Shown one piece after another: positions 1,898 to 42,300 of a stretch of 64,000 nt of DNA. Origin of the DNA: Microglena sp. YARC (lineage: Eukaryota; Chlorophyta; Chlorophyceae; Chlamydomonadales; Chlamydomonadaceae). The stretch covers positions 14,002,658 to 14,066,657 of the forward strand of contig CM039467.1 in the NCBI GenBank assembly GCA_022414725.1, in the 5' to 3' direction. A program made the position numbers and the translations under genes. The notes beneath the pieces were generated by a model. It ran no database searches. It was not told where the DNA came from and saw only the letters and a program-made list of their open reading frames with translations. The stretch's first letter is position 1, and the number at the start of each line of letters is the position of its first letter.

Positions 1898-2619
1898 ATG
1901 GCCCGCACCAAGAAGACCGCGCGCATGGAGACCGGCGGCAGGAAGCCCGCCCCACCTAAGAAGACCAACGCGCCTCCTACCAAGACCTCCAAGAAGGCCA
2001 AGATCGCTCCAGCCAAGGCCTTCCCAGCCAAGACCGCCCCAGCCAAGACCAAGGGCTCCTCCAAGCCTCAAGGGTCCCAGCCGGGAGACTCCCTCCCCTC
2101 CAGATCTGTGACATCTGGATCCAAGCGCTCGCGCGAGGAGGACGCCTCCTCGCTCAACTCCGAACTGTTGCGCCAGTTGGTGGAGGCCAACGGATCATCA
2201 AGGACTTGCAAGCGTCCATCAAGGAGAAGGAGAGGAATGATCCCCACGTCGAAATCCTACCCGATGTTCCCGCGAACCGAACGACGAACGCATATGGACC
2301 TTCGAAAAAAGATCGCACTCCAAAGCACCGCAATCCCAACGCATCGAAAGATGAGTGGGCAGCGCCAGGCTTAGTAGTCGACCTATCGAAAGTTCCGGAT
2401 CAAGCCCTCGTTGACCTGCACGATCGACTTGCTAGCCCTAGGGCTCTCAAGAAACTCCGAGTTGAACGGCCTGAACTTTACCAAACTATCGAAGCGGCTC
2501 TGGGTATCAAGGATCTGGGGATGCGATCTCACCAGACCTACATGAAATGTGGTCAGGCGTTATCGGAGTTCCATGCAAATCCCCAGACCTACCAGATGCC
2601 AGCCGATTTCCTGAGATAA
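1898..2619 (+). pseudogene. Gag-like protein with histone H3-tail-like N-terminus (frameshifted)
   Basis: The ATG at 1898 sits in a good Kozak context (ACCATGG). The first residues are MARTKKTARMETGGRK, aligning with the H3 tail ARTKQTARKSTGGK. A1-R2-T3-K4, T6-A7-R8 and T11-G12-G13 are matched; K9 is Met and S10 is Glu. A Lys/Pro/Ala-rich, H1-like stretch follows (PAKTAPAK), then an acidic/basic linker (SKRSREED). The frame breaks near 2190: the first frame reads ...LRQLVEAN and the continuing sequence (IIKDLQASIKEKER) is in another frame, open to 2619. One base appears lost, or a programmed shift is used. The C-terminal part is helical and unrecognised. The next ORF starts 4 bp downstream. 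Confidence 0.65.
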
Positions 2620-2623
2620 ACTC

Positions 2624-3229
2624 ATGGCCTTGAACTCACCATCGACAGCTCAGTACAAGGTCAAGACGAAAGTCTCGGCCCTTGTCCAAGAGTGCGCCGA
2701 TGGGGAGGGCAAACCGGACGAGATTGTGTGGACTACCCTGGGTTTGTGCGCGTTCGATACCCCCAGGAACCTTATCAAGTCCATGCAGGACACGATTTGG
2801 ACCCTGAGCACCTTGTACACCGCGGCACAGGCAGCAGGCAATTTCAAAACCTGCTTCTATGCTTTCTGGGCGTACAAGGCTGCCCGCGACCTCTATGAGG
2901 TCCAGTGGAGTGCCCTGACCAAAGCCCTCGGGATTGAGAAGGCGCACGAGCTGTTGATCGAAAGAATGAAACCTTTCGGTGAAATTTCTAACGATCAGTG
3001 GGACAAGCTAGTAAGCTTGGCTAAGGGGGGTAAGTTCGAGGATGCACGCATCGCCCTCGCCCCGCAAATCAGACGTTCCCTGGATTACCAAAAGGAACGG
3101 GCTGAAGCGAAGGACGGAAGGCCGGTGCGCTGCAGCCACTGTGGCATTGAAGGCCACTCGGCTGAGCAATGCTACAAAGGCAAGAACAAGAGGCAGAGGA
3201 AATCGCCAAAGGGGGATGACAAGAAGTGA
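2624..3229 (+). CDS. Gag-like protein with CCHC zinc knuckle
   Basis: This 201-residue protein is mostly helical and ends in a zinc knuckle C-x2-C-x4-H-x4-C (CSHCGIEGHSAEQC, about residues 168-181), followed by a Lys/Arg-rich tail. That layout is typical of retroelement Gag nucleocapsid ends. It starts 4 bp after the preceding ORF in another frame, so the two may be halves of one Gag separated by mutation. A strong splice donor (GGGGTAAGT, intron from 3030) lies inside the ORF. Using it removes the zinc knuckle and joins the first 135 residues to the PHD-YR frame. It would therefore make Gag unspliced and a Gag-PHD-YR fusion when spliced. Confidence 0.7.
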   Translation: MALNSPSTAQYKVKTKVSALVQECADGEGKPDEIVWTTLGLCAFDTPRNLIKSMQDTIWTLSTLYTAAQAAGNFKTCFYAFWAYKAARDLYEVQWSALTKALGIEKAHELLIERMKPFGEISNDQWDKLVSLAKGGKFEDARIALAPQIRRSLDYQKERAEAKDGRPVRCSHCGIEGHSAEQCYKGKNKRQRKSPKGDDKK

Positions 3230-3263
3230 GCCTTCTAACAAGGCCCTCCCTGCTTCATTGTAG
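3030..3263 (+). other. Candidate 234-nt intron joining Gag to PHD-YR
   Basis: The donor is GTAAGT at 3030. There is a branchpoint-like CTAAC at 3235-3239, and the acceptor TTGTAG ends at 3263. Splicing joins G (3029) to GA (3264) as a Gly codon and continues in frame into the PHD finger Cys at 3266. The phase match and the branchpoint spacing support it, but no transcript evidence is available here. Confidence 0.5.
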
Positions 3264-4447
3264 GATGTACCATCTGCCAAGGCACCAAGGGAAGGATGCT
3301 TAGGTGCACCAATTGCAACCAGCACAGCCACCCCCAGTGCCTCAGCTTGGGCAGGAATGCCATGTCCTGTGGTACATTCAAGTGCCCAGCCTGCATTTTA
3401 ATTGAGTGCAACCTCCACATCACTAGCGCCCAAGGCCAGCAAGGGGCCAGGACGTTAGTGATGCTGGAGGGCTCAACCCTGGCTGTCAGTTCGCAAGACA
3501 CTTATGCAAGTGCTCTTAAGCGTTACACCAGGTGCATGGCTGAGGTATACTTAATTACTGAGCAGGAGGCACTCCCCCCTGGCCCCAAGGAACAAGTGCC
3601 ACTGACGCTAGTAAAGCTGTTCATGGGTTGGGCGGCAGGTCACTACAAACCTGCCACCATTCAAACAACCCTGTCAGCACTAGCAGAATGGCACAGGTCT
3701 AAGGGACTGGACCTTCACACTCTGAACTCCAGTGTTGTGGGACAACTCTCACAGGCCATCAGGGTGTTCCAGGGGCTAGAGGGAGTCTCCTCTGGCAAGC
3801 AGGGCATATGTAAGTCCCTCATTATCAAGTGTCTGGAGACCATGAGGAAGCTGAAGACCCTGCAGCCCCACATGGAGGACTTGTTTACTAGAGACGCAGC
3901 TTGGCTAGTGATGGGTTTCTTTGGCCTCCTTAGAAGGAGCGAGCTTATTGCTTTGCGTTTGTCAGATATAGTGACTAAGAAGGATCATGTAGTTGTCCAC
4001 ATCAGGCGCTCTAAAACAGACCAGGAAGGGAAGGGAGCCACTGTAGTGCTCCCAGCCCAGTGTAGGGACTCACTTAGAGTCAGGAGGATTATAGATGCCC
4101 TCTTACAGCTTCGAACCCGTCAGGGCGCCACGCCAGAGGACCACCTCATCACCGCCTGGGACCTAGACTCCCTTAGCTTGTCTTCCTCCCCCCTTCTTTC
4201 AGGTCAGGCTTTGTCCTATCGACTAAAGTCTAATCTCACTGCTATTGCACTCTCTCACCCCAAACTGGACATAGATCCAGCTAGGTTTGCCATGCACAGC
4301 CTCAGACGGGGAGGTGTAGTAGCAGCTTGGGCTAATGGGGCAGACCTAGAGACTATTAGAACTCAAGGTAGATGGAAATCAGATGCCATTAAGGCATATC
4401 TGATCCCAGACCTCTCGGTCAAGTTGAACTTTGCCTCCAGCCTCTGA
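3239..4447 (+). CDS. PHD finger-tyrosine recombinase
   Basis: The frame opens at 3239; the first ATG is at 3296, but the sequence upstream of it completes a zinc finger, so the true N-terminus is probably reached by splicing at 3264. The PHD-type C4-H-C3 pattern runs from CTIC (3266) through CTNC and HPQC to CPAC (about 3397). The catalytic YR signature, numbered from the ATG at 3296, is R213 (LLRRSEL), K240 (RRSKTDQ), H334-x2-R337 (HSLRRGG), W360 (GRWKS) and Y368 (KAYLI). All five positions are present and the frame is uninterrupted, so the enzyme may be active. It would cut and rejoin DNA through a 3'-phosphotyrosine link, inserting the element's circular form. The PHD finger is an uncommon partner. 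Confidence 0.88.
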   Translation, partial: QGPPCFIVGCTICQGTKGRMLRCTNCNQHSHPQCLSLGRNAMSCGTFKCPACILIECNLHITSAQGQQGARTLVMLEGSTLAVSSQDTYASALKRYTRCMAEVYLITEQEALPPGPKEQVPLTLVKLFMGWAAGHYKPATIQTTLSALAEWHRSKGLDLHTLNSSVVGQLSQAIRVFQGLEGVSSGKQGICKSLIIKCLETMRKLKTLQPHMEDLFTRDAAWLVMGFFGLLRRSELIALRLSDIVTKKDHVVVHIRRSKTDQEGKGATVVLPAQCRDSLRVRRIIDALLQLRTRQGATPEDHLITAWDLDSLSLSSSPLLSGQALSYRLKSNLTAIALSHPKLDIDPARFAMHSLRRGGVVAAWANGADLETIRTQGRWKSDAIKAYLIPDLSVKLNFASSL

Positions 4448-5029
4448 GCCTAGCTTTCCTTTCCCTCTCTTTTCTCTTGATACCCCATCACTTAGCCAAG
4501 CCTGCTGTCCTGCACATGCTCCTTACTCCTACACCTTTCCCCCAGTCCCCCCTTTACACTCCCTTCCTTTACATAGTTTTATCCTGAGGGCACGTGTGTG
4601 TGAAATTGCAGTGACTCTTGCATATGGTAGTAGCACAAAGACAGACCTGAACAGTCTGGACTTACAAGCTAGATAGTGCAGTTGACTTAATTTAATGGTA
4701 AAAGCTGATAAGACCAGTAAAGCCAGCTAGTGGTGTGATATACCCCCTAATCAAGGGAAATATCACACACAAAGCTAAAACTTTACAAGGCCCAGCATAC
4801 ACCTTAAATATGTCTACTAGCACTTGTACCAATGGGGGCCCCATCTGAAAGATCGCTGGACCTCTCGTGCAGTGTCTCAATATCCAGCAAGCAGGCCCCC
4901 ATACTTTTGCAAATATAAGTACTGACAATGATGAAGCCTGCATGTGCTTAATTTCCTCAACCCTTAAGGGTAAATCATATGTATTGGAAATATGAAAAAG
5001 CAATTGTAAGGAATCTGAGTCAACCGTCT
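4448..5029 (+). other. 3' non-coding part of the YR element
   Basis: This is pyrimidine-rich sequence followed by about 400 bp (from about 4626) that is repeated almost exactly at the end of the second copy. No ORF is supported. It probably holds the 3' UTR and the right recombination site. Confidence 0.6.
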
Positions 5030-5033
5030 GAAT

Positions 5034-5784
5034 GCCGCATTTCCCACACAGTAGTGGGTGAAATGGAGTATTCAGCCGCGCGACGCAAGATCCCGCAGGA
5101 CGCATTCATATTTCAAATACCCGTAACCCCCCGGGCAAAACCAGGAGTAACCACCGCCAGTGTACTCTCAGTAGTACTGTCCTCCCCGGTATAAAATCAA
5201 GTGCACAGTCACCGGGGGCACTAAATTCTTGGTGCCTCAAGCTGCTGAGCCTTGATCTTAACCAAATTTCGAGTTCCCACCACCATCCCTCTGTCCCACA
5301 GGAGTTATATCTTCCAGAAGCTACCTAGAGCCTCCCCAGGGGAAGTGACTCTGTTATTATTTGACAGTAGCGACTCTATTGGTAGTAGCACAAAGACAGA
5401 CCTGAACAGTCTGGACTTACAAGCTAGATAGTGCAGTTGACTTAATTTAATGGTAAAAGCTGATAAGACCAGTAAAGCCAGCTAGTGGTGTGATACACCC
5501 CCTAATTAAGGGAAATATCACACACAAAGCTAAAACTTTACAAGGCCCAGCATACACCTTAAATATGTCTACTAGCACTTGTACCAATGGGGGCCCCATC
5601 TGAAAGATCGCTGGACCTCTCGTGCAGTGTCTCAATGTCCAGCAAGCAGGCCCCCATACTTTTGCAAATATAAGTAATGACAATGATGAAGCCTGCATGT
5701 GCTTAATTTCCCCAACCCTTAAGGGTAAATTATATGTATTGGAAATATGAAAAAGCAACTGTAAGGAATCTGAGTCAACCGTCT
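5034..5784 (+). mobile_element. Internally deleted second copy of the YR element, tandem
   Basis: This 751-bp copy starts exactly like 1647 and ends exactly like 5029. It shares about 238 bp at the 5' end (through the TATA box and leader) and about 400 bp at the 3' end. The whole coding region is replaced by about 115 bp of unrelated sequence (about 5273-5388). It is therefore non-autonomous and relies on a recombinase in trans. It abuts the full copy through a single GAAT (5030-5033) and ends at GAAT 5785-5788. Confidence 0.85.
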
Positions 5785-5906
5785 GAATAGTCAATCATCG
5801 GGAATTTACAGAATACAGAACATCTCGAAATACCTAGCTCATCTATGTACTTCGGTAAAGAAAGGCTTTTGCAGAATGATATTGTTCCGCTTCCGCATTG
5901 TCTTGA

Positions 5907-7202: not shown

Positions 7203-7530
7203 GCTCTGTGATTTATGGTTATGAGTCTTGGGTTGTTGGAGTCGATTAGGTTGGAAGCTGCCCGGAAGCTGGACCCTCATAAATCATACAAAACACAAAC
7301 CCTTTGAGTCTTTTTAAAATCATATGAGTCTTGGGATGTTGGAGTTGATTAGGTCGTAAGCTGCCCGGAAGCTGGCCTATAAATCATACAAAACACAAAC
7401 CCTCTGAGTTTTTAAAAAATCATATGAGTCTTGGGTTGTTGGAGTCGATTAGGTTAGAAGCTGCCCGGAAGCTGGACCCTCATAAATCATACAAATCACA
7501 AACACTCTGAGTCTTTTAAAATCATATGAG
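7203..7530 (+). repeat. 104-bp satellite, about three copies (left arm)
   Basis: Units contain CATATGAGTCTTGGG, a doubled GGAAGCTG and CACAAACCCTCTGAG. They mirror 16045-16370 in the right arm and belong to the same family as the large array at 9575-11700. Confidence 0.9.
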
Positions 7531-7612: not shown

Positions 7613-7853
7613 GATTCCCCGCGCTTGGTATGGGGTAATTCCCCGCGCTTGGTATGGGGTAATTCCCCGCGCTTGGTGTGGGGTAATTCCCCGCGCTTGG
7701 TATGGGGGTAATTCCCCGCGCCTGGTGTGGGGTAATTCCCCGCGCTTGGTATGGGGTAATTCCCCGCGCCTGGTGTGGGGTAATTCCCCGCGCTTGGTAT
7801 GGGGTAATTCCCCGCGCATGGTGTGGGGTAATTCCCCGCGCTTGGCAATTGGC
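7613..7853 (+). repeat. 24-bp GC-rich tandem repeat, ten copies
   Basis: The unit core is CCCCGCGC-TTGGTAT-GGGGTAATT. Variants TTGGTAT and YTGGTGT alternate over part of the array. Because 24 is divisible by 3, it gives spurious repeat proteins in several frames. The right arm has only six copies (15827-15960), so copy number changed after the arms formed. Confidence 0.93.
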
Positions 7854-9511: not shown

Positions 9512-9574
9512 TTTAATGATAACACACACATTTCTTAATACCTGTTTTTTAAATGAAGCTGGCCTTTCATAATT

Positions 9575-11700
9575 GAAACAAAACACAGACCCTCTGAGTT
9601 TTTTTTAAATCATATGAGTCTTGGGATGTCAGAGTTGATTAGGTCGGAAGCTGCCCGGGAGCTGGCCTGTCATAAATGATACAAATCACAAACCCTCTGA
9701 GTCTTCTTAAAAATCATATGGTCTTGGGATGTTGGATTTGATTAGGTCGGAAGCTCCCCGGAAGCTGGACCCTCATAAATGATACAAATCACAAACCCTC
9801 TGAGTTTTTTTAAAAATCATATGAGTCTTGGGATGTCAGAGTTGATTAGGTCGGAAGCTGCCCGGAAGCTGGCCTTTCATAAATGATACAAATCACAAAC
9901 CCTCTGAGTCTTTTTAAAATCATATGAGTCTTGGGATGTTGGAGTTGTTTAAGTCGGAAGCTGCCCGGAAGCTGGCCTTTCATAAATCATACAAATCTCA
10001 AACCCTCTGAGTTTTTTTTTTTAAATCATATGAGTCTTGGGACGTTGGAGTAAATTAGGTCGGAAGCTGCCCGGAAGCTGGCCTTTCATAAATGATACAA
10101 ATCACAAACCCTCTGAGTCTTTTTAAAATCATATGAGTCTTGGGATGTTGGAATTGAGTAGGTCGGAAGCTGCCCGGAAGCTGGACCCTCATAAATCATA
10201 CAAATCACAAACCCTCTGAGTTTTTTTAAAATCATATGAGTTATGGGATGTCAGAGATGATTAGGTCGGAAGCTGCCCGGAAGCTGGCCTTTCATAAATG
10301 ATACAAATCACAAACCCTCTGAGTTTTTTAAAAATCATATGGTCTTGGGATGTTGGATTTGTTTAGGTCGGAAGCTGCCCGGAAGCTGGACCCTCATAAA
10401 TGAAACAAAACACAAACCCTCTGAGTTTTTTTAAAAGTCATATGAGTCTTGGGACGTTGTAGTTGATTAGGTCGGAAGCTGCCCGGAAGCTAGCCTATCA
10501 TAAATCATACGAAACACAAACCCTCTGAGTTTTTTTTAAATCATATGAGTCTTGGGATGTCAGAGTTGATTAGGTCGGAAGCTGCCCGGAAGCTGGACCC
10601 TCATAAATGATACAAATCACAAACCCTCTGAGTTTTTTTAAAAATCATATGAGTCTTGGGATGTCAGAGATGATTAGGTCGGAAGCTGCCCGGAAGCTGG
10701 TCTTTCATAAATGATACATATCACAAACCCTCTGAGTTTTTTTAAAAATCATATGGTCTTGGGATGTTGGATTTGTTTAGGTCGGAAGCTGCCCGGAAGC
10801 TGGACCCTCATAAATGATACAAATCACAAACCCTCTGAGTTTTTTTTTAAATCATATGAGTCTTGGGATGTCAGAGTTGATTAGGTCGGAAGCTGCCCGG
10901 AAGCTAGCCTATCATAAATCATACGAAACACAAACCCTCTGAGTTTTTTTTAAATCATATGAGTCTTGGGATGTCAGAGTTGATTAGGTCGGAAGCTGCC
11001 CGGAAGCTGGTCTTTCATAAATGATACAAATCACAAACCCTCTGAGTTTTTTTAAAAATCATATGGTCTTGGGATGTTGGATTTGTTTAGGTCGGAAGCT
11101 GCCCGGAAGCTGGACCCTCATAAATGATACAAATCACAAACCCTCTGAGTTTTTTTTTAAATCATATGAGTCTTGGGATGTCAGAGTTGATTAGGTCGGA
11201 AGCTGCCCGGAAGCTAGCCTATCATAAATCATACGAAACACAAACCCTCTGAGTTTTTTTTAAATCATATGAGTCTTGGGATGTCAGAGTTGATTAGGTC
11301 GGAAGCTGCCCGGAAGCTGGCCTTTCATAAATCATACGAAACACACACCCTCTGAGTTTTTAAAAAATCATATGAGTCTTGGGATGTCAGAGTTGAATAG
11401 GTCGGAAGCTGCCCGGAAGCTGGCCTTTCATAAATGATACAAATCACAAACCCTCTGAGTCTTTTTAAAAATCATATGGTCTTGGGATGTTGGATTTGTT
11501 TAGGTCGGAAGCTGCCCGGAAGCTGGACCCTCATAAATGATACAAATCACAAACCCTCTGAGTCTTTTTAAAATCATATGAGTCTTGGGATGTTGGAGTT
11601 GAGTAGGTCGGAAGCTGCCCGGAAGCTGGACCCTCATAAATCATACAAATCACAAACCCTCTGAGTTTTTTAAAAATCATATGAGTCTTGGGATGTTATA
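9575..11700 (+). repeat. 104-bp satellite array, about 20 copies
   Basis: Monomers share TCATATGAGTCTTGGGATG, GGTCGGAAGCTGCCCGGAAG and CAAACCCTCTGAG followed by T and A runs. Sub-variants (GTCAGAGTTGATT against GTTGGATTTGTTT; GGCCTTTC against GGACCCTC) recur in order. The GTTGGATTTGTTT variant appears near 10351, 10761, 11071 and 11486, spacings of about 3 to 4 monomers, so there is higher-order structure. The array ends abruptly inside a coding remnant at about 11700. Confidence 0.95.
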
Positions 11701-12738
11701 GTTTGCAGGCGTTATAAAAAAATTCCTGCATTTGACAAGAGTGGACACGAGGTGACCGTGGAAAGCGCCATGGCATTGCTGGAGAAGGCCGCTCGTGCAG
11801 ATGGCCAGGGGTCTTGGGATCTGAGCGAGATGTGCATGCAGTCAGATTTCTTGATGGGCCTCATCCAGAGGCTGCCCGTTTAGGCAGGCGGAGCATGGGA
11901 GGGTGCTGTGACCTTGGATCTGAGCTCTAACAGGCTGGGGACGCTAAGCGTGGAACAGCTGCGCAAGCTGGCATGTGCCCTGAGGTGCAGGCCGTGGCTG
12001 CGGGTGCGATTGGGGTACGAGGTCATGCCGTCGGTTGTCGTGAAGGCGCTGGAAGCAGAGGAGATGGGCTCTGCCTGGGGTGGCCTGGTGTGTGTAGACC
12101 GGCCGTGGGAGAACCCGGCCAACAAGCGGCTTGCCGACTCTATCGCATCACTGGCCGACGCAACACGGGGGCTGATCACGGCACAGGAGGGCGCGGTGAA
12201 GCATGTCAAGGACAGTACAGCAGAGAGCGATGCAAACAACCGTGGCATATCCAATGCATGGAAGCACCAAATGGCAGTTGGCATCAAGGACCTGGTGGGC
12301 GGTGAGATCGTGGCTGTCAACTACAAGTGGCTTGGCGGCGACCATGATTGCCTGGTGGCGGGGGTGCTAGAGGGCGTGCCAGTGATTGCGATCGGGGAGG
12401 CGAAGTTGAACATGCCATCGAAGGTGAACGATGCGCTGAAACAGCTGGCCAGCAACGCAACTCGCTGGGGGGATCTCTGCTTCAAGTCACAGCATGATGG
12501 CGAATTGGACGATGAGGATGGACAGCTTATGGTGTCACCCCATGATGCAAAGGACATTCGCAAGCTGCGAGTGCCTGAGTTTGCCGAGCGCAAGTTGGTG
12601 TATGCGCTGGGGAGGGCATGTATCCCAAAGCACACGCTGGAGCGCATTGAGCAACAGATGCGTGTGATGGGGCAAAACAAGTGGCTCAAGGTGATCATGC
12701 CACAGGGCACAGCACATCTGGTACAAATGGATGCATGA
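11701..12738 (+). pseudogene. PD-(D/E)XK nuclease-like protein, 5' truncated, in-frame TAG
   Basis: A frame opens at the satellite edge (about 11701), reads YKKIPAFDKSGHEV..., meets TAG at 11881-11883 and continues in the same frame to 12738. After the stop comes a leucine-rich segment (LDLSSNRLGTLS) and then a region with a PD-(D/E)XK-like arrangement: D145/D147 in GGDHDCLV, a hydrophobic strand, then E164-A-K166 (VIAIGEAK), counted from 11908. Such nuclease modules are known in transposon proteins and in the Crinkler/RHS family; either is possible. The missing start and the TAG suggest a pseudogene. The 11908 frame alone (276 aa) could still be translated. Confidence 0.5.
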
Positions 12739-15752: not shown

Positions 15753-15826
15753 CTACTTATGGGACGCGTACGAAACGCGATTTTTAAGCGGGTAGAATGG
15801 GCGTTCCTGCCTCCGGGCCAATTGCC

Positions 15827-15960
15827 AAGCGCGGGGAATTACCCCACACCAGGCGCGGGGAATTACCCCATACCAAGCGCGGGGAATTACCCCACACCAG
15901 GCGCGGGGAATTACCCCATACCAAGCGCGGGGAATTACCCCATACCAAGCGCGGGGAATC
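15827..15960 (-). repeat. 24-bp GC-rich tandem repeat, six copies
   Basis: This is the right-arm equivalent of the ten-copy array at 7613-7853. Confidence 0.92.
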
Positions 15961-16044
15961 CAAACCAAACCCCAAAGAGTTGTCAAACCCCTTGCGAACC
16001 TCAACTTGTAAGTAAACAAGTACAAGCAAATAAATTATGTTCCT

Positions 16045-16370
16045 CATATGATTTTAAAAGACTCAGAGGGTTTGTGTCTTGTATGATTTATGAGGGTCCA
16101 GCTTCCGGGCAGCTTCTAACCTAATCGACTCCAACAACCCAAGACTCATATGATTTTTTAAAAACTCAGAGGGTTTGTGTTTTGTATGATTTATAGGCCA
16201 GCTTCCGGGCAGCTTCCGACCTAATCAACTCCAACATCCCAAGACTCATATGATTTTAAAAAGACTCAAAGGGTTTGTGTTTTGTATGATTTATGAGGGT
16301 CCAGCTTCCGGGCAGCTTCCAACCTAATCGACTCCAACAACCCAAGACTCATAACCATAAATCACAGAGC
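16045..16370 (-). repeat. 104-bp satellite, about three copies (right arm)
   Basis: It mirrors the left-arm copies at 7203-7530. Confidence 0.9.
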
Positions 16371-20524: not shown

Positions 20525-21335
20525 ATCCAAGACTCATATGATTTTAAAAAGACTCAGAGGGTTTGTGTTTTGTATGATTTATGAGGGTCCAGCTTCCGGG
20601 CAGCTTCCGATCTAATCAATCCCGACATCCCAAGACTCATATGATTTTTAAAAAACTCAGAGGGTTTGTGTTTTGTATGATTTATGAGGGTCCAGCTTCC
20701 GGGCAGCTTCCGATCTAATCAACCCCGACATCCCAAGACTCATATGATTTTTAAAAAACTCAGAGGGTTTGTGTTTTGTATGATTTATGATAGGCCAGCT
20801 TCCGGGCAGCTTACGACCTAATCAACTCCAACATCCCAAGACTCATATGATTTTTAAAAAACTCAGAGGGTTTGTGATTTGTATGATTTATGAGGGTCCA
20901 GCTTCCGGGCAGCTTACGACCTAATCAACTCCAACATCCCAAGACTCATATGATTTTTAAAAGACTCAGAGGGTTTGTGTTTTGTATGATTTATGAGGGT
21001 CCAGCTTCCGGGCAGCTTCCGATCTAATCAACCCCGACATCCCAAGACTCATATGATTTTTAAAAAACTCAGAGGGTTTGTGTTTTGTTTGATGTATGAT
21101 AGGCCAGCTTCCGGGCAGCTTCCGACCATCCCAAGACTCATATGATTTTTAAAAAACTCAGAGGGTTTGTGATTTGTATGATTTATGAGGGTCCAGCTTC
21201 CGGGCAGCTTACGACCTAATCAACTCCAACATCCCAAGACTCATATGATTTTAAAAAGACTCAGAGGGTTTGTGTTTTGTATGATTTATGAGGGTCCAGC
21301 TTCCGGGCAGCTTCCGATCTAATCAACCCCGACAT
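20525..21335 (-). repeat. 104-bp satellite array, about eight copies, reverse orientation
   Basis: Same family as 9575-11700 on the opposite strand. One monomer near 21110-21135 lacks the CTAATCAACTCCAA portion. The array ends at the AATCAACCCCGACATGC junction. Confidence 0.93.
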
Positions 21336-27109: not shown

Positions 27110-28010
27110 GCTTTCTGATAGGTTAATGGGTTGATGATGGTTTGCTGATTGGTTAATGATGGATTGGTGATATGTTGATGGATCATGGGGTCTCTGGTTG
27201 CTAGGTGAGTGGTTCATACAGTTTATGGTTTACTGGGTCTGTTTTTGACAAGGGTGGCAGTGTACAGCGTTGATGGGTTAATGATGGGTTCATGATGGAT
27301 TGATGGCTTGATGGATCATGGGGTCTTTGGTTGCTGGGTGAGTTGTTGATAAGATTGATGGTAGACTAGGTTGCTGGGTGAGTGGTTTATATGGTTGATG
27401 GTTTACTGGGCCTGTTTTTGATAAGGGTGATGGAGTACAGCGTTGATGGGTTGATGGGTTGATGATGGCTTGATGATGGCCTGATGGCTAGATGGATCAT
27501 GGGGTCTCTGGTTGCTGGGTGAGTCGTTGATAATGTTGAAGGTAGATTAGGTTGCCCGGTGAGTGGTTTATAAGCTTGATGGTTTACTGGGTAGTTTATT
27601 GGGAAGGGTTGTGGTGTACAGTGTTGATGGGTTGATGATGGGTTGATGGAGCATGGGGTCTGTGGTTGCTGGGTGAGTGGTTTATATGGTTGATGGTAGA
27701 CTCGGTTGCTGGGTGAGTGGTTTATATGGTTGATGGTAGACTCGGTTGCTGGGTGAGTGGTTTATATGTTTGATGGTAGACTCGGTTGCTGGGTGAGTGG
27801 TTCATATGGTGGATGGTTTACTGGGCCTGTTTTTGATAAGGGTGGTGGTGTACAGCGTTGATGGGTTGATGATGGGTTGATGGATCATGGGGTCTCCGGT
27901 TGCTGGGTGAGTCGTTGATAATGTTGAAGGTAGACTAGGTTGCTGGGTGAGTGGTTTATAAGCTTGATGGTTAACTGGGTCGTTTATTGAGAAGGATGGT
28001 GGTGTACAGT
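27110..28010 (+). repeat. Complex minisatellite of 130-235-bp units, progenitor of the giant array
   Basis: Five copies are marked by GATGGATCATGGGGTCT-type motifs (about 27178, 27310, 27491, 27647, 27882), with GTTGCTGGGTGAGTGGTT, GGTTTACTGGG and GTGTACAGYGTTGATGGG in order. Each copy has only a few GATGGGTTGAT units after the GTGTACAG motif. A sixth copy is at 42147-42300, beyond the giant array. Confidence 0.9.
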
Positions 28011-31000
28011 GTCGATGGGTTGATGATAGGTTGATGGCTTGATGATGGCTTGATGATGGCTTGATGATGGCTTGATGATGGGTTGATGATGGGTTGATGG
28101 CTTGATGATGGGTTGATGATGGGTTGATGGGTTGATGATGGGTTGATGATGGGTTGATGATGGGTTGATGGCTTGATGATGGGTTGATGATGGGTTGATG
28201 ATGGGTTGATGGCTTGATGATGGGTTGATGATGGGTTGATGATGGGTTGATGGGTTGATGGCATGATGATGGCTTGATGATGGCTTGATGATGGGTTGAT
28301 GATGGGTTGATGGGTTGATGATGGGTTGATGGGTTGATGATGGGTTGATGGCTTGATGATGGGTTGATGATGGGTTGATGATGGGTTAATGATGGGTTGA
28401 TGATGGGTTGATGATGGGTTGATGATGGTTGATGATGGGTTGATGATGGGTTGATGATGGGTTGATGATGGGTTGATGATGGGTTGATGATGGGTTGATG
28501 ATGATGGCTTGATGATGGGTTGATGATGGGTTGATGATGGGTTGATGATGGGTTGATGGGTTGATGATGGGTTGATGATGGCTTGATGATGGCTTGATGA
28601 TGGGTTGATGATGGGTTGATGGCTTGATGATGGCTTGATGATGGGTTGATGATGGGTTGATGATGGGTTGATGATGGGTTGATGATGGGTTGATGATGGG
28701 TTGATGGGTTGATGATGGGTTGATGGCTTGATGATGGCTTGATGATGGGTTGATGATGGGTTGATGATGGGTTGATTTGATGATGGTTGATGATGGCTTT
28801 GATGATGGCTTGATGATGATGGGTTGATGATGGGTTGATGATGGGTGATGGCTTGATGATGGGTTGATGATGGCTTGATGATGGCTTTGATGATGGGTTG
28901 ATGATGGGTGATGATTGATGGCTTGATGATGGGTTGATGGGTTGATGATGGGTTGATGATGGGTGATGATGGTTGATGGCTTGATGATGGCTTGATGATG
29001 GGTGATGATGGGTTGATGATGGGTTGATGGCTTGATGATGGGTTGATGATGGGTTGATGATGGGTTGATGGCTTGATGATGGGTTTGATGATGATGGGTT
29101 GATGATGGGTTGATGATGGCTTGATGATGGGTTGATGATGGGTTGATGATGGCTTGATGATGATGGCTTGATGATGGCTTGATGATGGCTTGATGATGGG
29201 TTGATGGCTTGATGATGGCTTGATGATGGGTTGATGATGGGTTGATGATGGGTTGATGATGGGTTGATGGCTTGATGATGGCTTGATGATGGGTTGATGA
29301 TGGCTTGATGATGGCTTGATGATGGCTTGATGATGGGTTGATGATGGCTTGATGATGGGTTGATGATGGCTTTGATGATGGCTTGATGATGGTTTGATGA
29401 TGGGTTGATGATGGTTTGATGCTTGATGATGGCTTGATGATGGCTTGATGATGGGTTGATGATGGGTTGATGATGGGTTGATGATGGCTTGATGATGGGT
29501 TGATGATGGGTTGATGATGATGGTTGATGATGATGGTTGATGATGGCTTGATGATGGTTGATGATGGGTTGATGATGGGTTGATGATGGTTGATGATGGG
29601 TTGATGGCTGATGGCTTGATGATGGGTTTGATGATGGGTTGATGATGGGTTGATGATGGGCTTGATGATGGGTTGATGATGGGTTGATGATGGGTTGATG
29701 ATGGGCTTGATGATGGCTTGATGATGGGTTGATGATGATGATTTGATGATGGATTGATTGATGGTTTGATGATGGCTTGATGATGGGTTGATGATGGGTT
29801 GATGATGGGCTTGATGCTTGATGGCTTGATGATGGGTTGATGATGGGTTGATGATGTTGATGATGGGCTTGATGATGGCTTGATGATGGCTTTGATGATG
29901 GCTTGATGGGTTGATGATGGGTTTGATGATGGGTTGATGATGGGTTGATGATGGTTGATGATGGGTTTGATGGCTTGATGATGGGTTGATGATGGGTTGA
30001 TGATGGGTTGATGATGGCTTGATGATGGGTTGATGATGGCCTTGATGATGGCTTGATGATGGCTTGATGATGCTTGATGATGGCTTTGATGATGGGTTGA
30101 TGATGGGTTGATGGCTTGATGATGGGTTGATGATGGGTTGATGATGTTGATGATGGCTTGATGATGGTTGATGATGGGTTGATGATGGCTTGATGATGGC
30201 TTGATGATGGCTTGATGATGGGTTGATGATGATGGCTTGATGATGGGTTGATGATGGGTTGATGATGGGTTGATGTTGATGATGGCTTGATGATGGCTTG
30301 ATGATGGGTTGATGATGGGTTGATGATGGGTTGATGATGGGTTGATGATGATGATGATGGGTTGATGATGGGTTGATGATGGGTGATGATGATGGGTTGA
30401 TGATGGCTTGATGATGGCTTGATGATGGCTTGATGATGGCTTGATGATGGCTTGATGATGGGTTGATGATGATGATGGCTTGATGATGGCTTTGATGATG
30501 ATGGTTGATGATGGGTGATGTTGATGATGGGTTTGATGATGATGATGGCTGATGATGATGATGGGTTGATGATGGGTTGATGGCTTGATGATGGGTTGAT
30601 GATGATGGTTGATGATGGTTTGATGATGGGCTTGATGATGGTTGATGATGGTTGATGATGGTTGATGATGGGTTTGATGATGGCTTGATGATGGCTTGAT
30701 GAGGTTGATGATGGGTTGATGATGGTTGATGATGATGGGTTGATGATGGGTTGATGATGGGTTGATGATGATGGCTTTGATGATGGGTTGATGGCTTGAT
30801 GATGGCTTGATGATGGCTTGATGATGGCTTGATGATGGGTTGATGATGGGTTGATGGGTTGATGATGGGTTGATGATGGGTTGATGATGGCTTGATGATG
30901 GGTTGATGATGGGTTGATGATGGTTTGATGATGGGTTGATGATGGCTTGATGATGGGTTGATGATGGGCTTGATGATGGTTGATGATGGCTTGATGATGG

Positions 31001-34000
31001 GTTGATGATGGCTTTGATGATGGTTGATGATGGGTTGATGATGGCTTGATGATGGGTTGATGATGGGTTGATGATGATGGCTTGATGATGGGTTGATGAT
31101 GGGTTGATGATGGGTTGATGATGGCTTGATGATGGCTTTGATGATGATGGCTTGATGATGGCTTGATGATGGCTTGATGATGGCTTGATGATGGGTTGAT
31201 GATGGGTTGATGCTTGATGATGGCTTGATGATGGCTTGATGATGGGTTGATGATGGGTTGATGATGGGTTGATGGCTTGATGATGGGTTGATGATGGCTT
31301 GATGATGGCTTGATGATTGGTTGATGATGGGTTGATGGCTTGATGATGGCTTGATGATGGCTTGATGATGGGTTGATGATGGGTTGATGATGGGTTTGAT
31401 GGGGTTGATGATGGTTGATGATGGGCTTGATGATGGGTTGATGGCTTGATGATGATGGGTTTGATGATGGGTTGATGATGGCTTGATGATGGCTTGATGA
31501 TGGGTTGATGATGGGTTGATGATGGCTTGATGATGGGTTGATGATGGGTTGATGGCTTGATGATGGCTTGATGATGGGCTTGATGATGGGTTGATGATGG
31601 CTTGATGATGGGTTGATGATGGCTTGATGATGGCTTGATGATGGGTTGATGATGGCTTGATGATGGCTTGATGATGGCTTGATGATGGGTTGATGATGGC
31701 TTGATGATGGGTTGATGATGGGTTGATGATGGGTTGATGATGGGTTGATGATGGGTTGATGATGGGTTGATGATGGGTTGATGATGGCTTGATGATGGTT
31801 GATGATGGTTTGATGATGGGTTTGATGATGGCTTGATGATGGTTGATGATGGGTTGATGATGATGGCTTGATGATGATGGCTTGATGATGGGTTGATGAT
31901 GGCTTGATGATGGGTTGATGATGGGTTGATGATGGGTTGATGATGGGTTGATGATGGGTTGATGATGGGTTGATGATGGCTTGATGATGGCTTGATGATG
32001 GCTTGATGATGGGTTGATGATGGCTTGATGATGGGTTGATGGCTTGATGATGGGTTGATGATGGCTTGATGATGGGTTGATGATGGGTTGATGGCTTGAT
32101 GATGGGTTGATGATGGCTTGATGATGGGTTGATGATGGGTTTGATGATGGCTTGATGATGGGTTGATGATGGGTTGATGATGATGGCTTGATGATGGCTT
32201 GATGATGGGTTGATGGCTTGATGATGATGGGTTGATGATGGCTTGATGATGGCTTGATGATGGGTTGATGATGATGGCTTGATGATGGGTTGATGATGGC
32301 TTGATGATGGCTTGATGATGGGTTGATGATGGGTTGGATGATGGGTTGATGGCTTGATGATGGGTTTGATGATGGCTTGATGATGGCTTGATGATGGCTT
32401 GATGATGGGTTGATGATGGGTTGATGATGGCTTGATGATGGGTTGATGATGATGGTTGATGATGGGTTGATGATGGGTTGATGATGGGTTGATGGCTTGA
32501 TGATGGGTTGATGATGGGTTGATGATGATGGCTTGATGATGGTTGATGATGGGTGATGATGGCTTGATGATGGGTTGATGATGGGTTGATGGCTTGATGA
32601 TGGCTTGATGATGGCTTTGATGATGGGTTGATGATGATGGCTTGATGATGGGTTGATGATGGGTTGATGGGTTGATGATGGGTTGATGGCTTGATGATGG
32701 GTTGATGATGGGTTGATGATGGCTTGATGATGGGTTGATGATGGCTTGATGATGGGTTGATGGCTTGATGATGGGTTGATGATGGGTTGATGATGGGTTG
32801 ATGATGGCTTGATGATGATGATGGCTTGATGATGGCTTGATGATGATGATGGCTTGATGATGGTGATGATGGCTTGATGATTGATGATGGGTTGATGATG
32901 ATGGCTTGATGATGGGTTGATGATGGGTTGATGATGGGTTGATGGGTTGATGATGGCTTGATGATGGGTTGATGATGGCTTGATGATGGCTTGATGATGG
33001 TTGATGATGGCTTGATGATGGCTTGATGATGGGCTTGATGATGGGTTGATGATGGGTTGATGGCTTGATGATGGGTTGATGATGGGTTGATGATGGGTTG
33101 ATGATGGCTTGATGATGATGGGTTGATGATGGGTTGATGATGGGCTTGATGATGGCTTTGATGATGGGTTGATGATGGGTTGATGATGGGTTGATGATGG
33201 CTTGATGATGGGTTGATGATGGCTTGATGATGGGTTGATGATGGGTTGATGATGGGTTTGATGATGATGGCTTGATGATGGCTTGATGATGGGTTGATGG
33301 CTTGATGATGGGTTGATGATGGGTTGATGATGGCTTGATGATGGGTTGATGGCTTGATGATGGCTTGATGATGGCTTGATGATGGCTTGATGATGGGTTG
33401 ATGATGGGTTGATGATGGCTTGATGATGGCTTGATGATGGGTTGATGGCTTGATGATGGTTGATGATGGGTGATGATGGGTTGATGATGGGTTGATGATG
33501 GTGATGATGATGGCTTGATGATGGGTTGATGATGGGTTGATGATGGGTTGATGATGGGTTGATGATGGCTTGATGATGGGTGATGATGGTTGATGATGGT
33601 TGATGGCTTGATGATGGCTTGATGATGGCTTGATGATGGCTTGATGATGGGTTGATGATGGGTTGATGATGGGTTGATGGGTTGATGATGGGTTGATGAT
33701 GGGTTGATGATGGCTTGATGATGGGTTGATGATGATGGCTTGATGATGGCTTGATGATGATGATGGGTTGATGATGATGATGGGTTGATGGCTTGATGAT
33801 GGCTTGATGATGGGTTGATGATGGTTTGATGGGTTGATGATGGCTTGATGATGGGTTGATGATGGCTTGATGATGGGTTGATGATGGCTTGATGATGGGT
33901 TGATGATGGCTTGATGATGGCTTGATGATGGCTTGATGATGGGTTGATGATGGGTTGATGATGGGTTGATGGGTTGATGATGGGTTGATGATGGCTTGAT

Positions 34001-37000
34001 GATGGGTTGATGATGGGCTGATGATGATGGGCTTGATGATGGCTTGATGATGGGTTGATGATGGGTTGATGATGGGTTGATGGGTTGATGATGGGTTGAT
34101 GATGGCTTGATGATGGCTTGATGATGGGTTGATGATGGCTTGATGATGGCTTGATGATGGGTTGATGATGGCTTGATGATGGGTTGATGATGGGTTGATG
34201 GCTTGATGATGGGTTGATGATGGGTTGATGATGGCTTGATGATGGGTTGATGATGATGGCTTGATGATGGCTTGATGATGGGTTGATGGGTTGATGATGG
34301 GTTGATGATGGGCTTGATGATGATGGCTTGATGATGGGTTGATGATGGCTTGATGATGGCTTGATGATGGGTTGATGATGGCTTGATGATGGGTTGATGA
34401 TGGCTGATGGCTTGATGCTTGATGATGGGTTGATGATGGGTTGATGATGGTTGATGGCTTGATGATGGGTTGATGATGGGTTGATGATGATGATGGCTTG
34501 ATGATGGGTTTGATGATGGCTTGATGATGGCTTGATGATGGGTTGATGATGGGTTGATGGCTTGATGATGGGTTGATGATGGGTTGATGATGGGTTGATG
34601 ATGGGTTGATGATGGCTTGATGATGGGTTGATGATGGGTTTGATGATGATGGCTTGATGATGGGTTGATTGGGTTGATGATGGGTTTGATGATGGGTGAT
34701 GATGATGGCTTGATGATGGGTTGATGATGGGTTGATGATGGCTTGATGATGGCTTGATGATGGCTTGATGATGGGTTTGATGATGGCTTTTTTGATGATG
34801 GGTTGATGATGGGTTGATGATGGGCTTGATGATGGCTTGATGATGGCTTGATGATGGCTGATGATGATGGGTTGATGATGGGTTGATGATGGCTTGATGA
34901 TGGGTTGATGATGGGTTGATGATGGCTTGATGATGGGTTGATGATGGGTTGATGATGGCTTGATGATGGGTTGATGGCTTGATGATGGGTTGATGATGGG
35001 TTGATGATGGTTGATGATGGGTTGATGATGGCTTGATGATGGGTTGATGATGGGTTGATGATGGGTTGATGATGGGCTTGATGATGGCTTGATGATGGCT
35101 TGATGATGGGTTGATGGCTTGATGATGGGTTGATGATGGCTTGATGATGGCTTGATGATGGCTTGATGATGGCTTGATGATGGGTTGATGATGGGTTGAT
35201 GATGATGGCTTGATGATGGGTTGATGATGGGTTGATGATGGCTTGATGATGGGTTGATGATGGCTTGATGATGGGTTGATGATGGGTTGATGGGTTGATG
35301 ATGGGTTGATGATGGCTTGATGATGGGTTGATGATGGGTTGATGATGGCTTGATGATGGGTTGATGATGGGTTGATGGCTTGATGATGGGTTGATGGCTT
35401 GATGATGGGTTGATGATGGGTTGATGATGGGTTTGATGATGGCTTGATGATGGGTTGATGATGGGTTGATGATGATGGCTTGATGATGGGTTGATGATGG
35501 GTTGATGATGGGTTGATGATGGCTTGATGATGGGTTGATGATGATGGTTGATGATGGGTTGATGGCTTGATGATGGGTTGATGATGGGTTGATGATGGGT
35601 TGATGATGGCTTGATGATGGCTTGATGATGGCTTGATGATGGGTTGATGATGGGTTGATGATGGCTTGATGATGATGATGGCTTGATGATGGGTTGATGA
35701 TGGGTTGATGATGGGTTGATGATGGGTTGATGATGGGTTGATGGCTTGATGATGGGTTGATGATGGCTTGATGATGGGTTGATGATGGGTTGATGATGGG
35801 TTGATGATGGTTGATGATGATGGTTGATGATGGGTTTGATGGCTTGATGATGGGTTTGATGATGGGCTTGATGATGGCTTGATGATGGCTTGATGATGGG
35901 TTGATGATGGGTTGATGATGGGTGATGATGGCTTGATGATGGGTTGATGATGGGTTGATGATGATGGCTTGATGATGGGTTGATGATGGGTTGATGGCTT
36001 GATGATGGGTTGATGATGGGTTGATGATGGCTTGATGATGGGTTGATGATGGGTTGATGATGGCTTGATGATGGCTTGATGATGGGTTGATGATGGGTTG
36101 ATGATGGGTTGATGGCTTGATGATGGCTTGATGATGGCTTGATGATGGGTTGATTGATGATGGGTTGATGATGATGGTTGATGATGATGGCTTGATGATG
36201 GCTTTGATGATGGCTTGATGATGGCTTGATGATGGGTTGATGATGGGTTGATGATGGCTTGATGATGGCTTGATGATGGTTGATGATGGGTTGATGATGG
36301 GTTGATGATGGCTTGATGATGGGCTGATGATGATGGGTTTGATGATGGGCTTGATGATGGCTTGATGATGGGTTGATGATGGCTTGATGATGGCTTGATG
36401 ATGGGTTGATGGGTTGATGATGGGTTGATGATGGCTTGATGATGGCTTGATGATGGCTTGATGATGGTTGATGATGGGTTGATGATGATGGGTTGATGAT
36501 GGGTTGATGGCTTGATGATGGGTTGATGATGGCTTGATGATGGTTGATGATGGGTTGATGATGGGTTGATGATGGCTTGATGATGGCTTGATGATGATGG
36601 CTTTGATGATGGCTTGATGATGGCTTGATGATGGCTTGATGATGGGTTGATGGTTTGATGATGGCTTGATGATGGCTTGATGATGATGGATTGATGATGG
36701 GTTGATGATGGGTTGATGGGTTGATGATGGGTTGATGATGGCTTGATGATGGGTTGATGATGGGTTGATGATTGATGGGTTGATGATGGCTTGATGATGA
36801 TGGCTTGATGATGGGTTGATGATGATGGTTGATGATGGGTTGATGATGATGATGGGTGATGATGGCTTGATGATGGGTTGATGATGGGTTGATGATGGGT
36901 TGATGATGGGTTGATGGCTTGATGATGGGTTGATGATGGGTTGATGATGGCTTGATGATGGGTTGATTGATGGCTTGATGATGGCTTTGATGATGGGTTG

Positions 37001-40000
37001 ATGATTGATGATGGGTTGATGATGGCTTGATGATGGGTTGATGATGGGTTGATGATGGGTTTTGATGATGGGTTGATGATGGCTTGATGATGGGTGATGA
37101 TGATGGTTGATGATGGCTGATGATGGGCTTGATGATGGCTTGATGATTGATGATGGTTGATGATGATGGTTGATGGCTTGATGATGGGTTGATGATGGCT
37201 TGATGATGATGGTTGATGATGATGGCTTGATGATGGGTTGATGGCTTGATGATGGCTTGATGATGGGTTGATGATGGGTTGATGATGGGTTGATGGCTTG
37301 ATGATGGGTTGATGATGGGTTGATGATGGGTTGATGATGGCTTGATGATGGGTTGATGATGGGTTGATGGCTTGATGGCTTGATGATGGCTTGATGATGG
37401 CTTGATGATGGGTTGATGATGGCTTGATGATGATGGTTGAGGCTTTGATGATGGCTTGATGATTTGATGGGTTGATGATGGCTGATGATGGCTTGATGAT
37501 GGGTTGATGATGATGGGTTGATGATGGCTTGATGGGTTGATGATGGGTTGATGATGGGTTGATGATGGCTTGATGATGGCTTGATGATGGCTTGATGATG
37601 GGTTGATGATGGCTTGATGATGGCTTGATGATGGCTTGATGATGGGTTGATGATGGCTTGATGATGATGGTTGATTGATGATGGGTTGATGATGGTTGAT
37701 GATGGGTTGATGATGATGGCTTGATGATGGGTTGATGATGGGTTGATGATGATGATGGCTTGATGATGGGTTGATGATGGCTTGATGATGGGTTGATGAT
37801 GGGCTTGATGATGGGTTGATGATGGGTTGATGATGGCTTGATGATGGGTTGATGATGATGGCTGATGATGATGGCTTGATGATGGGTTGATGATGGGCTT
37901 GATGATGGCTTTGATGATGGGTTGATGATGGGTTGATGATGGGTTGATGGCTTGATGATGATGGTTGATGATGGGATTGATGATGATGGGCTTGATGATG
38001 GGTTGATGATGGGTTGATGATGGCTTGATGATGGGTTGATGATGGGTTGATGATGATGGGTTGATGATGGTTGATGTTGATGATGGCTTGATGATGGGTT
38101 GATGATGGGTGATGATGGCTTGATGATGGGTTGATGATGGCTTGATGATGGGTTGATGATGGGTTGATGATGGCTGATGATGGCTTGATGATGGGTTGAT
38201 GGGTTGATGTGATGGTTGATGATGGGTTGATGTTGATGATGGGTTGATGATGGGTTGATGATGGGTGATTGATGATGGGTTGATGATGGGTTGATGATGG
38301 GTTGATGGCTTTGATGATGGGTTGATGATGATGGCTTGATGAATGATGGGTTGATGATGGGTGATGATGGGTTGATGATGGCTTGATGATGATGGCTTGA
38401 TGATGGGTTGATGATGATGGGCTTGATGATGGCTTGATGATGGGTTTGATTGATGGGTTGATGGGCTTGATGATGGGTTGATGATGGCTGATGATGGCTT
38501 GATGATGGGTTGATGATGGGTTGATGATGGGTTGATGATGGGTTGATGATTGATGATGGGTTGATGATGGGTGATGATGATGGCTTGATGATGGGTTGAT
38601 GATGGCTTGATGATGGTTGATGATGGCTTGATGATGGGTTGATGATGGGTTGATGATGGGTTGATGATGATGATGGGTTTGATGGGTTGATGGTTGATGA
38701 TGGGTTGATGAGTGATGATGGCTTTGATGATGGGCTTGATGATGGGTGATGATGGGTTGATGATGGCTTGATGATGGGTTGATGATGGGGATTGATGATG
38801 GCTTGATGATGGGTGATGATGGCTTGATGATGGCTTTGATGATGGGTTGATGATGGGTTGATGATGGGTTGATGATGGCTTGATGATGATGGCTTGATGA
38901 TGGGTTTGATGATGGGTTGATGATGGCTTGATGATGGGTTGATGATGGGTTGATGATGGTTGATGATGGGTTGATGATGATGATGGTTGATGATGATGGC
39001 TTGATGATGGCTGGTTGATGATGATGGGTTGATGATGGGTTGATGATGGGTTGATGATGGCTTGATGATGGGTTGTGATGGGTTGATGATGGCTGATGAT
39101 GGTTGATGATGGGTTGATGGCTTGATGATGGCTTGATGATGGCTTGTTGATGATGGGTTGATGATGGGTTGATGGCTTGATGATGGGTTGATGATGATGG
39201 TTGATGATGGGTTGATGGTTGATGATGGTTGATGATGGCTTGATGATGGGTGATGATGGTTGATGATGGGTTGATTGATGATGGTTGATGATGGTTGATG
39301 GCTTGATGATGGTTGATGAGGGTTGATGATGGTTGATGATGCTTGATGATGGCTTGATGATGGCTTGATGATTGATGATGGTTGATGGCTTGATGATGGG
39401 TTGATGATGGGGATGATGGCTTGATGATGGGTTGATGAATGATGGCTTGATGATGGGTTGATGATTGATGATGGCTGATGGCTTGATGATGGGTTGATGA
39501 TGGTTGATGATGGTTGATGATGGGTTGATGCTTGATGATGGGTTGATGATGGGTTTGATGATGGTTGATGATGGGTTGATGATGGGTTGATGATGGGTTT
39601 GATGAGTTGATGATTGATGATGGGTTGATGATGGTTGATGATGTTGATGTTGATGATGGGCTTGATGATGGTTGATGATGGCTTGATGATGGGTTTGATT
39701 GATGATGGCTTGATGATGGGTTGATGATGGTTGATGATGGGTGATGATGGCGTTGATGATTTGATGAGCTTGATGATGGCTGATGGTTGATGATGATGGT
39801 GATGATGGGTTGATGATGATGGCTTGATGATGGGTTGATGATGGGATGATGGCTTGATGATGGCTTGATGATGGGTTGATGATGGGTTGATGGCTTGATG
39901 ATGGGTTGATGATGGGTTGATGATGGCTTGATGATGGCTTGATGATGGCTTGATGATGGCTTGATGATGGGTTGATGATGGGTTGATGATGGGTTGATGA

Positions 40001-42146: not shown

Positions 42147-42300
42147 GATGGATCATGGGGTTTGTGGTTGCTGGGTGATTGGTTTATATGGTTGATGCTA
42201 GACTAGTTTGCTTGGTGAGTGGTTAATATAATTATATAGTTGATGGTTTACTGGGTCGTTTATTGAGAAGGGTGGTGGTGTACAGTGCTGATGGGTCTGT
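42147..42300 (+). repeat. Distal copy of the complex minisatellite unit
   Basis: Contains GATGGATCATGGGG, GGTTTACTGGGTCG and GTGTACAGTGCTGATGGG, matching the copies before 28 kb. Confidence 0.85.

Follow-up and report, generated by a model that had tools for sequence, protein, structure and literature searches.

Why a retrotransposon protein should begin with a close likeness of the histone H3 tail, and what might read that tail, is the question raised by the window, the whole stretch of 64,000 nucleotides analysed here (C6:14002658-14066657, in a host genome of 568 Mb and 2,390 contigs that was searched for related copies). The mimic, MARTKKTARMETGGRK, was encoded by positions 1898-1945 of the plus strand (A1 to G13 at 1901-1939), at the start of a Gag protein whose translation from the ATG at 1898 reads MARTKKTARMETGGRKPAPPKK. 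Translation and alignment confirmed the ten matches named in the original prediction: residues A1, R2, T3, K4, T6, A7, R8, T11, G12 and G13 were identical with H3 residues 1-13 (10/13), and the differences were Q5K, K9M and S10E. The Lys/Pro/Ala-rich tail said to follow the mimic was present as well. As a peptide the mimic is ARTKKTARMETGG, set apart from the form found in family B, a separate family of elements. Judged by the sequence and the known rule of Met removal, A-R-T-K would form the protein start once Met is removed. In a tblastn search of the window H3 residues 1-44 matched at E 0.047, and nothing of the H3 fold was found there. Chance resemblance to H3 was ruled out by a probability of 3.3e-9 of at least 10/13 matches at a fixed start (composition of the Lys/Pro/Ala linker) and by shuffling the first-exon peptide 200,000 times, which never gave more than 7/13.

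Fifteen host histone stretches were compared with the mimic over codons 2-14. Thirteen host H3 genes (L118-L130) encoded ARTKQTARKSTGGK or one change from it and shared 26-30 of 39 nt with the mimic; a divergent host H3 (L132) shared 23/39 nt, and no start was found in the remaining stretch (L131). A recent or one-off capture of a host H3 gene, named at the outset as a competing origin, was rejected for the main family on this identity and on the recurrence of the mimic in many copies. With so low a nucleotide identity, the H3 likeness is old or convergent.

The mimic belongs to a copy of a split-direct-repeat tyrosine recombinase (YR) retrotransposon that is processed and dead, and the assignment to YR elements made in the original prediction was borne out. 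All its features lay on the plus strand. The repeats were arranged in the order a1 ... b1 a2 ... b2, with a1 at 1643-1888 (left copy of the split direct repeats) and a2 at 5030-5275 98.8% identical by blastn, and b1 at 4625-5033 and b2 at 5380-5788 98.3% identical. A TATA-like box, read from the sequence, lay within a1 (1803-1809), 95 nt before the Gag ATG. Comparison of the donor and of joined copies placed the leader exon (exon 1) at 1898-2239, containing the mimic, the Lys/Pro/Ala tail and a coiled-coil-like segment assigned by eye; its frame was disrupted in the 3' part, and it ended ...AATG where other copies have the donor G/GTGAGA. Gag exon 2, identified from translation, homologues and comparison of copies, followed directly at 2240-3229, intron 1, which most other copies have, being absent. 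It had an internal stop at 2617-2619 and, near its end (about 3128-3172), a zinc-knuckle motif, CSHCGIEGHSAEQC, with a PF00098 match at E 0.11, below the cut-off. The open reading frames 1865-2374, 2206-2619 and 2624-3229 are pieces of one broken Gag, and host homologues read through the frame breaks. Next came a branch-point-like TTCTAAC, a pyrimidine stretch and the acceptor of the reverse transcriptase (RT) exon, TTCATTGTAG (3233-3263, by comparison of copies), which abuts the PHD exon at 3263/3264. The PHD finger (C4HC3, CTICQGTKGRMLRCTNCNQHSHPQCLSLGRNAMSCGTFKCPAC) occupied 3266-3394, and the recombinase frame, with a Cre-like fold, ran from its first ATG, which lies inside the PHD finger, over 3296-4447. 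Reverse transcriptase was absent from the window copy.

Several other features of the window were recorded. A 14-kb satellite at 28014-42123, with an 11-bp unit GATGGGTTGAT, had an extreme strand skew (GC skew 0.82-0.87), and in this region the minus strand was open over 4,784 codons (27802-42156). Arrays of 100-103 bp repeats were found on both strands (7220-7530, 9555-11703, 16043-16353 and 20527-21335), with a 24-bp repeat, ATTCCCCGCGCTTGGTATGGGGTA, near them (7614-7845 and 15825-15959). A TTTAGGG-containing repeat lay at 54142-54356 and would suit a plant or green-algal host. At 49541-53623 and 56590-58236 there were long, internally repetitive open frames of coiled-coil-like character, which by eye may form a single host gene region. 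Copies of exon 1, all without intron 1 and in the same orientation, were located 6.75 kb apart at C6:13991061, C6:13997807 and C6:14004555 (window 1898); this cluster probably arose when a copy already processed was duplicated in tandem. Neither the RT nor the PHD acceptor was found in the short stretches downstream of the other two copies (L134 and L135).

PAT-like and Ngaro YR retrotransposons, of the order DIRS, comprise reverse transcriptase, Gag, a tyrosine recombinase and split direct repeats. The features by which a PAT/Ngaro-like element is recognised, tyrosine recombinase, split direct repeats and reverse transcriptase, were all found, the last of these in other copies: copy L077 has a 698-codon RT frame, and the protein P0138, whose match covered 13% of the host query at 98% identity, had an RVT_1 domain over the cut-off. 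A methylase-like domain separates PAT/DIRS from Ngaro, and in a general Pfam domain scan of the RT proteins P0138, P0139 and P0141 none was detected at E 0.1. These three and P0002, from other sources, were also returned by the Gag searches, in which no Gag of another species was found, the matches being EukProt proteins seemingly of the same host. Relatives of the DNA were not found in viral contigs or in prokaryote genome contigs.

The exon structure was worked out on L077, used as full-length reference because it holds all three coding parts; it is itself defective (K4R in the mimic, recombinase frame broken). Its exon 1 ends GAGAGGAATG/GTGAGA, and three acceptors lie downstream: CTGTTCAG before Gag exon 2, intron 1 measuring 237 nt; TTCATTGTAG/GTGAGA before, and in frame with, the 698-codon RT; and CCCCCATAG/GATGTACC before the PHD-recombinase. 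The end of exon 1 and all three continuations are in phase 1. Across copies, the exon 1 donor GT was kept in 39 of 44 distinct copies (four were joined to the Gag exon, one had lost it), and of 46 entries, with duplicates counted, 33 had an open exon 1 ending in phase 1. The RT acceptor GTAG was present in 29/31 distinct copies, and its AG was directly followed by GTGAGA in 29/31 (L077 1906-1936), so that the RT acceptor can also act as a donor. In this it resembles a recursive splice site, one that a retrotransposon has conserved. At the PHD acceptor, all 20 stretches read the PHD start in phase 1, with AG in 18, and the same phase was found in the sister-family stretches L115 and L116. In a loose scan of 55 entries intron 1 measured 175-290 nt, although the 237 nt of L077 itself was not picked up. 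The idea that removal of a 38-nt intron at the end of Gag fuses it to the recombinase was considered and rejected: the frame does not fit, and the donor of that intron is missing from the diverged copies L031, L033, L038 and L044.

Joined exons were found for two of the three continuations. In the main family, exon 1 is joined to Gag in three copies of the C6 cluster (the window copy, L002 and L004) and in L036/L067 on C1, where an RT match lies 1,990 nt downstream of the exon start; these four copies therefore represent two independent places. In the sister family, L133 (contig C758) has exon 1 fused in frame to the RT exon with nothing between them, the donor position being the same; its exon tail is that of L075, and its exon start is not recognisable. 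A joint between exon 1 and the PHD exon was not found among the 44 distinct copies. The stretch missing in the window is exactly that from the RT-acceptor AG, taken as donor, to the PHD-acceptor AG; since intron 1 is missing too, the window copy is best read as a retrocopy of a spliced RNA. With the first ATG of the recombinase frame inside the PHD finger and in-frame stops before it, the PHD could apparently be made whole only with the help of an upstream exon; splicing of exon 1 to the PHD-recombinase would follow from the common phase and from the lack of an upstream ATG that preserves the PHD. The mimic thus stands at the start of Gag, as originally described, but is not a feature of Gag only, because its leader exon is also in splice phase with the RT and PHD-recombinase exons.

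The PHD finger of the window has the C4HC3 ligands with PHD spacing and does not reach the Pfam gathering score (PF00628, 14.9 against 24 bits). A profile of its relatives matched solved PHD fingers (e.g. PHF12, E 3.3e-7), and the four relatives tested (P0004, P0007, P0008 and P0019) passed the Pfam PHD cut-off. The predicted structure had a pLDDT of about 90-93 over the finger. Many PHD fingers that read unmodified K4 (K4me0) carry an acidic residue right after the third Cys; the window PHD has none there, and in several other copies Asp stands right after the fourth Cys. PHD-YR relatives, among them ones of roughly 40% identity, were detected in many metagenome proteins, several with two PHD-like fingers in tandem (P0019, for example), and PHD-like fingers were fused to tyrosine recombinases in P0004, P0005, P0008, P0018, P0019, P0020 and P0049. 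P0008 is filed under a Spirochaetia MAG and looks like a eukaryotic element. Among the PDB sequence and fold matches listed, none was a structure in which PHD finger and tyrosine recombinase are fused.

The N-terminal part of exon 1 was matched at no fewer than about 50 places in the host genome. Among the best 30 host copies, 28 start with ARTK and 22 have the exact 13 residues; the two other starts are K4R (L009) and A1T (L019), single further changes within the 13 residues occur in L007, L022, L023 and L026, and in L012 and L029 the frame is broken directly after ARTK. Sixteen more diverged stretches were inspected, and eight of them have ARTK (L061, L062, L063, L064, L066, L067, L070 and L071; the frame of L070 is broken after it). 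Scans did not find ARTK in the diverged stretches L065, L072, L073, L074, L075 and L076, and no exon start was found in L068 and L069. The start codon of L073 is lost, yet it reads RTGTTARMSTGG. A real exception is the sister-family copy L075, which starts MTRNTQKTRVSRSKAPK, with MTRNTQKTRVSRSK where ARTK would be, keeps the basic tail, and has an open phase-1 exon and the PHD; with the same exon and PHD retained, an ARTK partner cannot be a strict requirement of the PHD. In family B, copy L078 starts MARTKETACMSTDGKK, with ARTK and Met9 kept; its exon 1, of only 38 codons and one base, comprises the mimic and a basic tail and is followed by GTGAGG in phase 1. Of 20 family-B stretches, six matched the mimic start (in five of these the frame is disrupted after the mimic, and one, L096, reads ARIK), six matched only downstream of the mimic and eight gave nothing useful, so that the mimic is lost in six of the 12 stretches matching the exon. 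Conservation across element families, which had been proposed as a check, therefore stood for the best copies and for L078, but failed in L075 and in half of the family-B stretches that matched; related elements without the motif, named beforehand as evidence against the prediction, do exist to this extent.

Selection on the mimic was assessed on 30 cleanly aligned copies, leaving out the decayed copy L065 and codons over 93. The starting set of 44 distinct copies, 13 of which were left out of the selection count for frame breaks or stops, contains stretches scoring well against the mimic only, and its residue counts are no census. No amino-acid variant common to at least two copies fell in the 14 mimic codons, against 17 in the 78 following; the difference was not significant (random 14-codon sets p 0.066; Fisher 0.15-0.20). 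Shared variants were likewise lacking from the windows that begin at codons 45 and 62-64. A looser count of 31 copies, including L065 and codons beyond a frame shift, gave no shared nonsynonymous variants in the 14 codons against 31 in 89 and, with the same 31 copies, a pN/pS of 0.31 in the mimic against 0.64. The purifying selection asked for in the original prediction was consequently not established; within the main family these comparisons are at most suggestive of it. Met9 was invariant in 30/30 cleanly aligned copies, without codon variant, and was also present in the diverged copies L061, L073 and L078.

A reading in which the mimic is a docking tag for PHD fingers, carried by the shared leader exon of a PAT/Ngaro-like YR retrotransposon, is put forward tentatively, with a confidence that falls a little short of even. 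Pre-mRNA starting with the mimic exon could be spliced in phase to any one of three exons, and alternative splicing would yield Gag, reverse transcriptase or the PHD-finger recombinase. The proteins of the element could thus share an N-terminus that, after the presumed Met removal, would display A-R-T-K as H3 does. Of the possible uses of this end, the most probable would be as a ligand of PHD fingers, above all of the one on the element's own recombinase, and such docking would bring recombinase, Gag and RT together within a particle or complex; alternatively, the mimic could act as a switch that frees the recombinase from restraint by the PHD, as H3K4me3 does in the case of RAG2. Host H3K4 readers would possibly bind it as well. 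The simplest explanation for an element that has an H3-like free tail as well as a recombinase with a PHD would be that the two meet. Against the docking tag count the start of L075, the family-B stretches in which the mimic is lost or followed by a frame disruption, the defects of L077, the lack of a joint between exon 1 and PHD among the 44 distinct copies, the non-significant selection and, for the window PHD, the score under the Pfam cut-off and the missing acidic residue. The full version of this scheme, with the mimic on all three proteins by alternative splicing and read by the own PHD as a private tail/reader pair for assembly or switching, is considered rather doubtful.

The docking tag has to be weighed against other uses of the same tail. 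According to the function originally proposed, a Met9 tail would trap K9 methyltransferases of the SUV39/G9a type, or K9 readers, and keep the element active. H3 K9M inhibits K9 methyltransferases, the invariance of Met9 in the aligned and diverged copies agrees with such a role, and the target may exist: canonical H3 of the host carries K9, and a single Pre-SET (SUV39-type) match scored 31.9 bits, just above the Pfam cut-off of 29.1. However, position 10 is Glu in the main family (A7 R8 M9 E10), so that the residue next to position 9 is changed and the context A7-R8-x9-S10 of H3 is altered; Ser10 was seen in the diverged copies L073 and L078. A dominant effect would presumably need much protein, and Met9 could also be a second start codon, being the annotated start of four predicted host proteins (P0092, P0125, P0126 and P0132). 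The window copy, moreover, is dead. With the mimic exon in splice phase with RT and PHD-recombinase, and with a PHD encoded, a ligand of the K4 side would be better motivated than a K9 trap; we favour the docking tag on these sequence features, and regard the blocking of K9 methylation as unlikely.

Most retroelements have Gag and RT acting partly outside the nucleus, which speaks against a reading in which the K4 side addresses the host, with COMPASS, LSD1 or H3K4 readers methylating or binding the mimic, Gag, RT or recombinase becoming tethered to promoters and open chromatin, and the own PHD doing likewise through real H3. The ARTK start of 28/30 best copies and the match of the PHD profile to H3-reading PHD fingers would suit this reading, and the RAG2 PHD is indeed described as being used to reach H3K4me3 sites (PMC11844651); we nevertheless hold host targeting, in both its forms, to be distinctly unlikely. 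The tail could also be a basic element for nucleic-acid binding or nuclear import, the H3 likeness being the remnant of an old histone-tail capture that has no reader. The Lys/Pro/Ala tail after the mimic, the basic tail kept by L075 without ARTK, the non-significant selection and the loss of the mimic in six of 12 family-B stretches are in its favour, but neither an invariant Met9 nor the exact N-terminal register is needed for a basic tail, and L078 keeps A1-K4, T6, A7, M9, T11 and G13 although its tail beyond the mimic has diverged. This explanation is judged improbable.

Compared with PAT-like and Ngaro elements, the docking-tag element has the same RT, zinc-knuckle Gag, tyrosine recombinase and a1 ... 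b1 a2 ... b2 repeats, and differs in having a PHD on the recombinase and a leader exon that carries the H3 mimic and is in phase for splicing to Gag, RT and recombinase. PHD fingers occur in other transposable elements and can read a free ART-K end, and histone mimics are known mostly from viruses and cell regulators. Among the open-licence PMC papers that the searches listed, judged by title and start of abstract, no earlier report of an H3-tail mimic or a PHD-recombinase in YR retrotransposons was found. YR retrotransposons with extra zinc domains are already known: the ALOG-type DIRS1-like element of Ectocarpus is described with a zinc-knuckle Gag, RT-RNase H and a recombinase with an extra N-terminal zinc domain, and resembles the present one in all of these except the nature of that domain, which is FCS-type plus ALOG and not a PHD; the main text does not use the term PHD, and no H3-like tail is mentioned for this element in the portions of the paper at hand (PMC3537659). 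The UHRF1 PHD is reported to bind the ARTK of H3 as well as the N-terminal VRTK of PAF15, likewise a non-histone N-terminus that resembles ARTK and is read by a PHD; PAF15, however, is a cellular protein, whereas here tail and PHD are encoded by one mobile element (PMC8034647). In RAG1/RAG2 a PHD also accompanies a transposon-derived recombinase and controls it by reading the H3 tail: the RAG2 PHD is described as restraining transposition, and a 21-residue H3K4me3 peptide as relieving this restraint. RAG, in contrast, descends from an RNase H-like transposase and not from a tyrosine recombinase, and the parts of the paper at hand mention no H3 mimic of its own (PMC11844651).

If the docking reading is true, mobile elements would be using the language of chromatin in a new way, through an N-terminal H3 mimic that recurs across a transposable element family and a PHD that the recombinase of this family carries, and the shared leader exon would answer how a retrotransposon without a Gag-Pol fusion could gather Gag, reverse transcriptase and recombinase.
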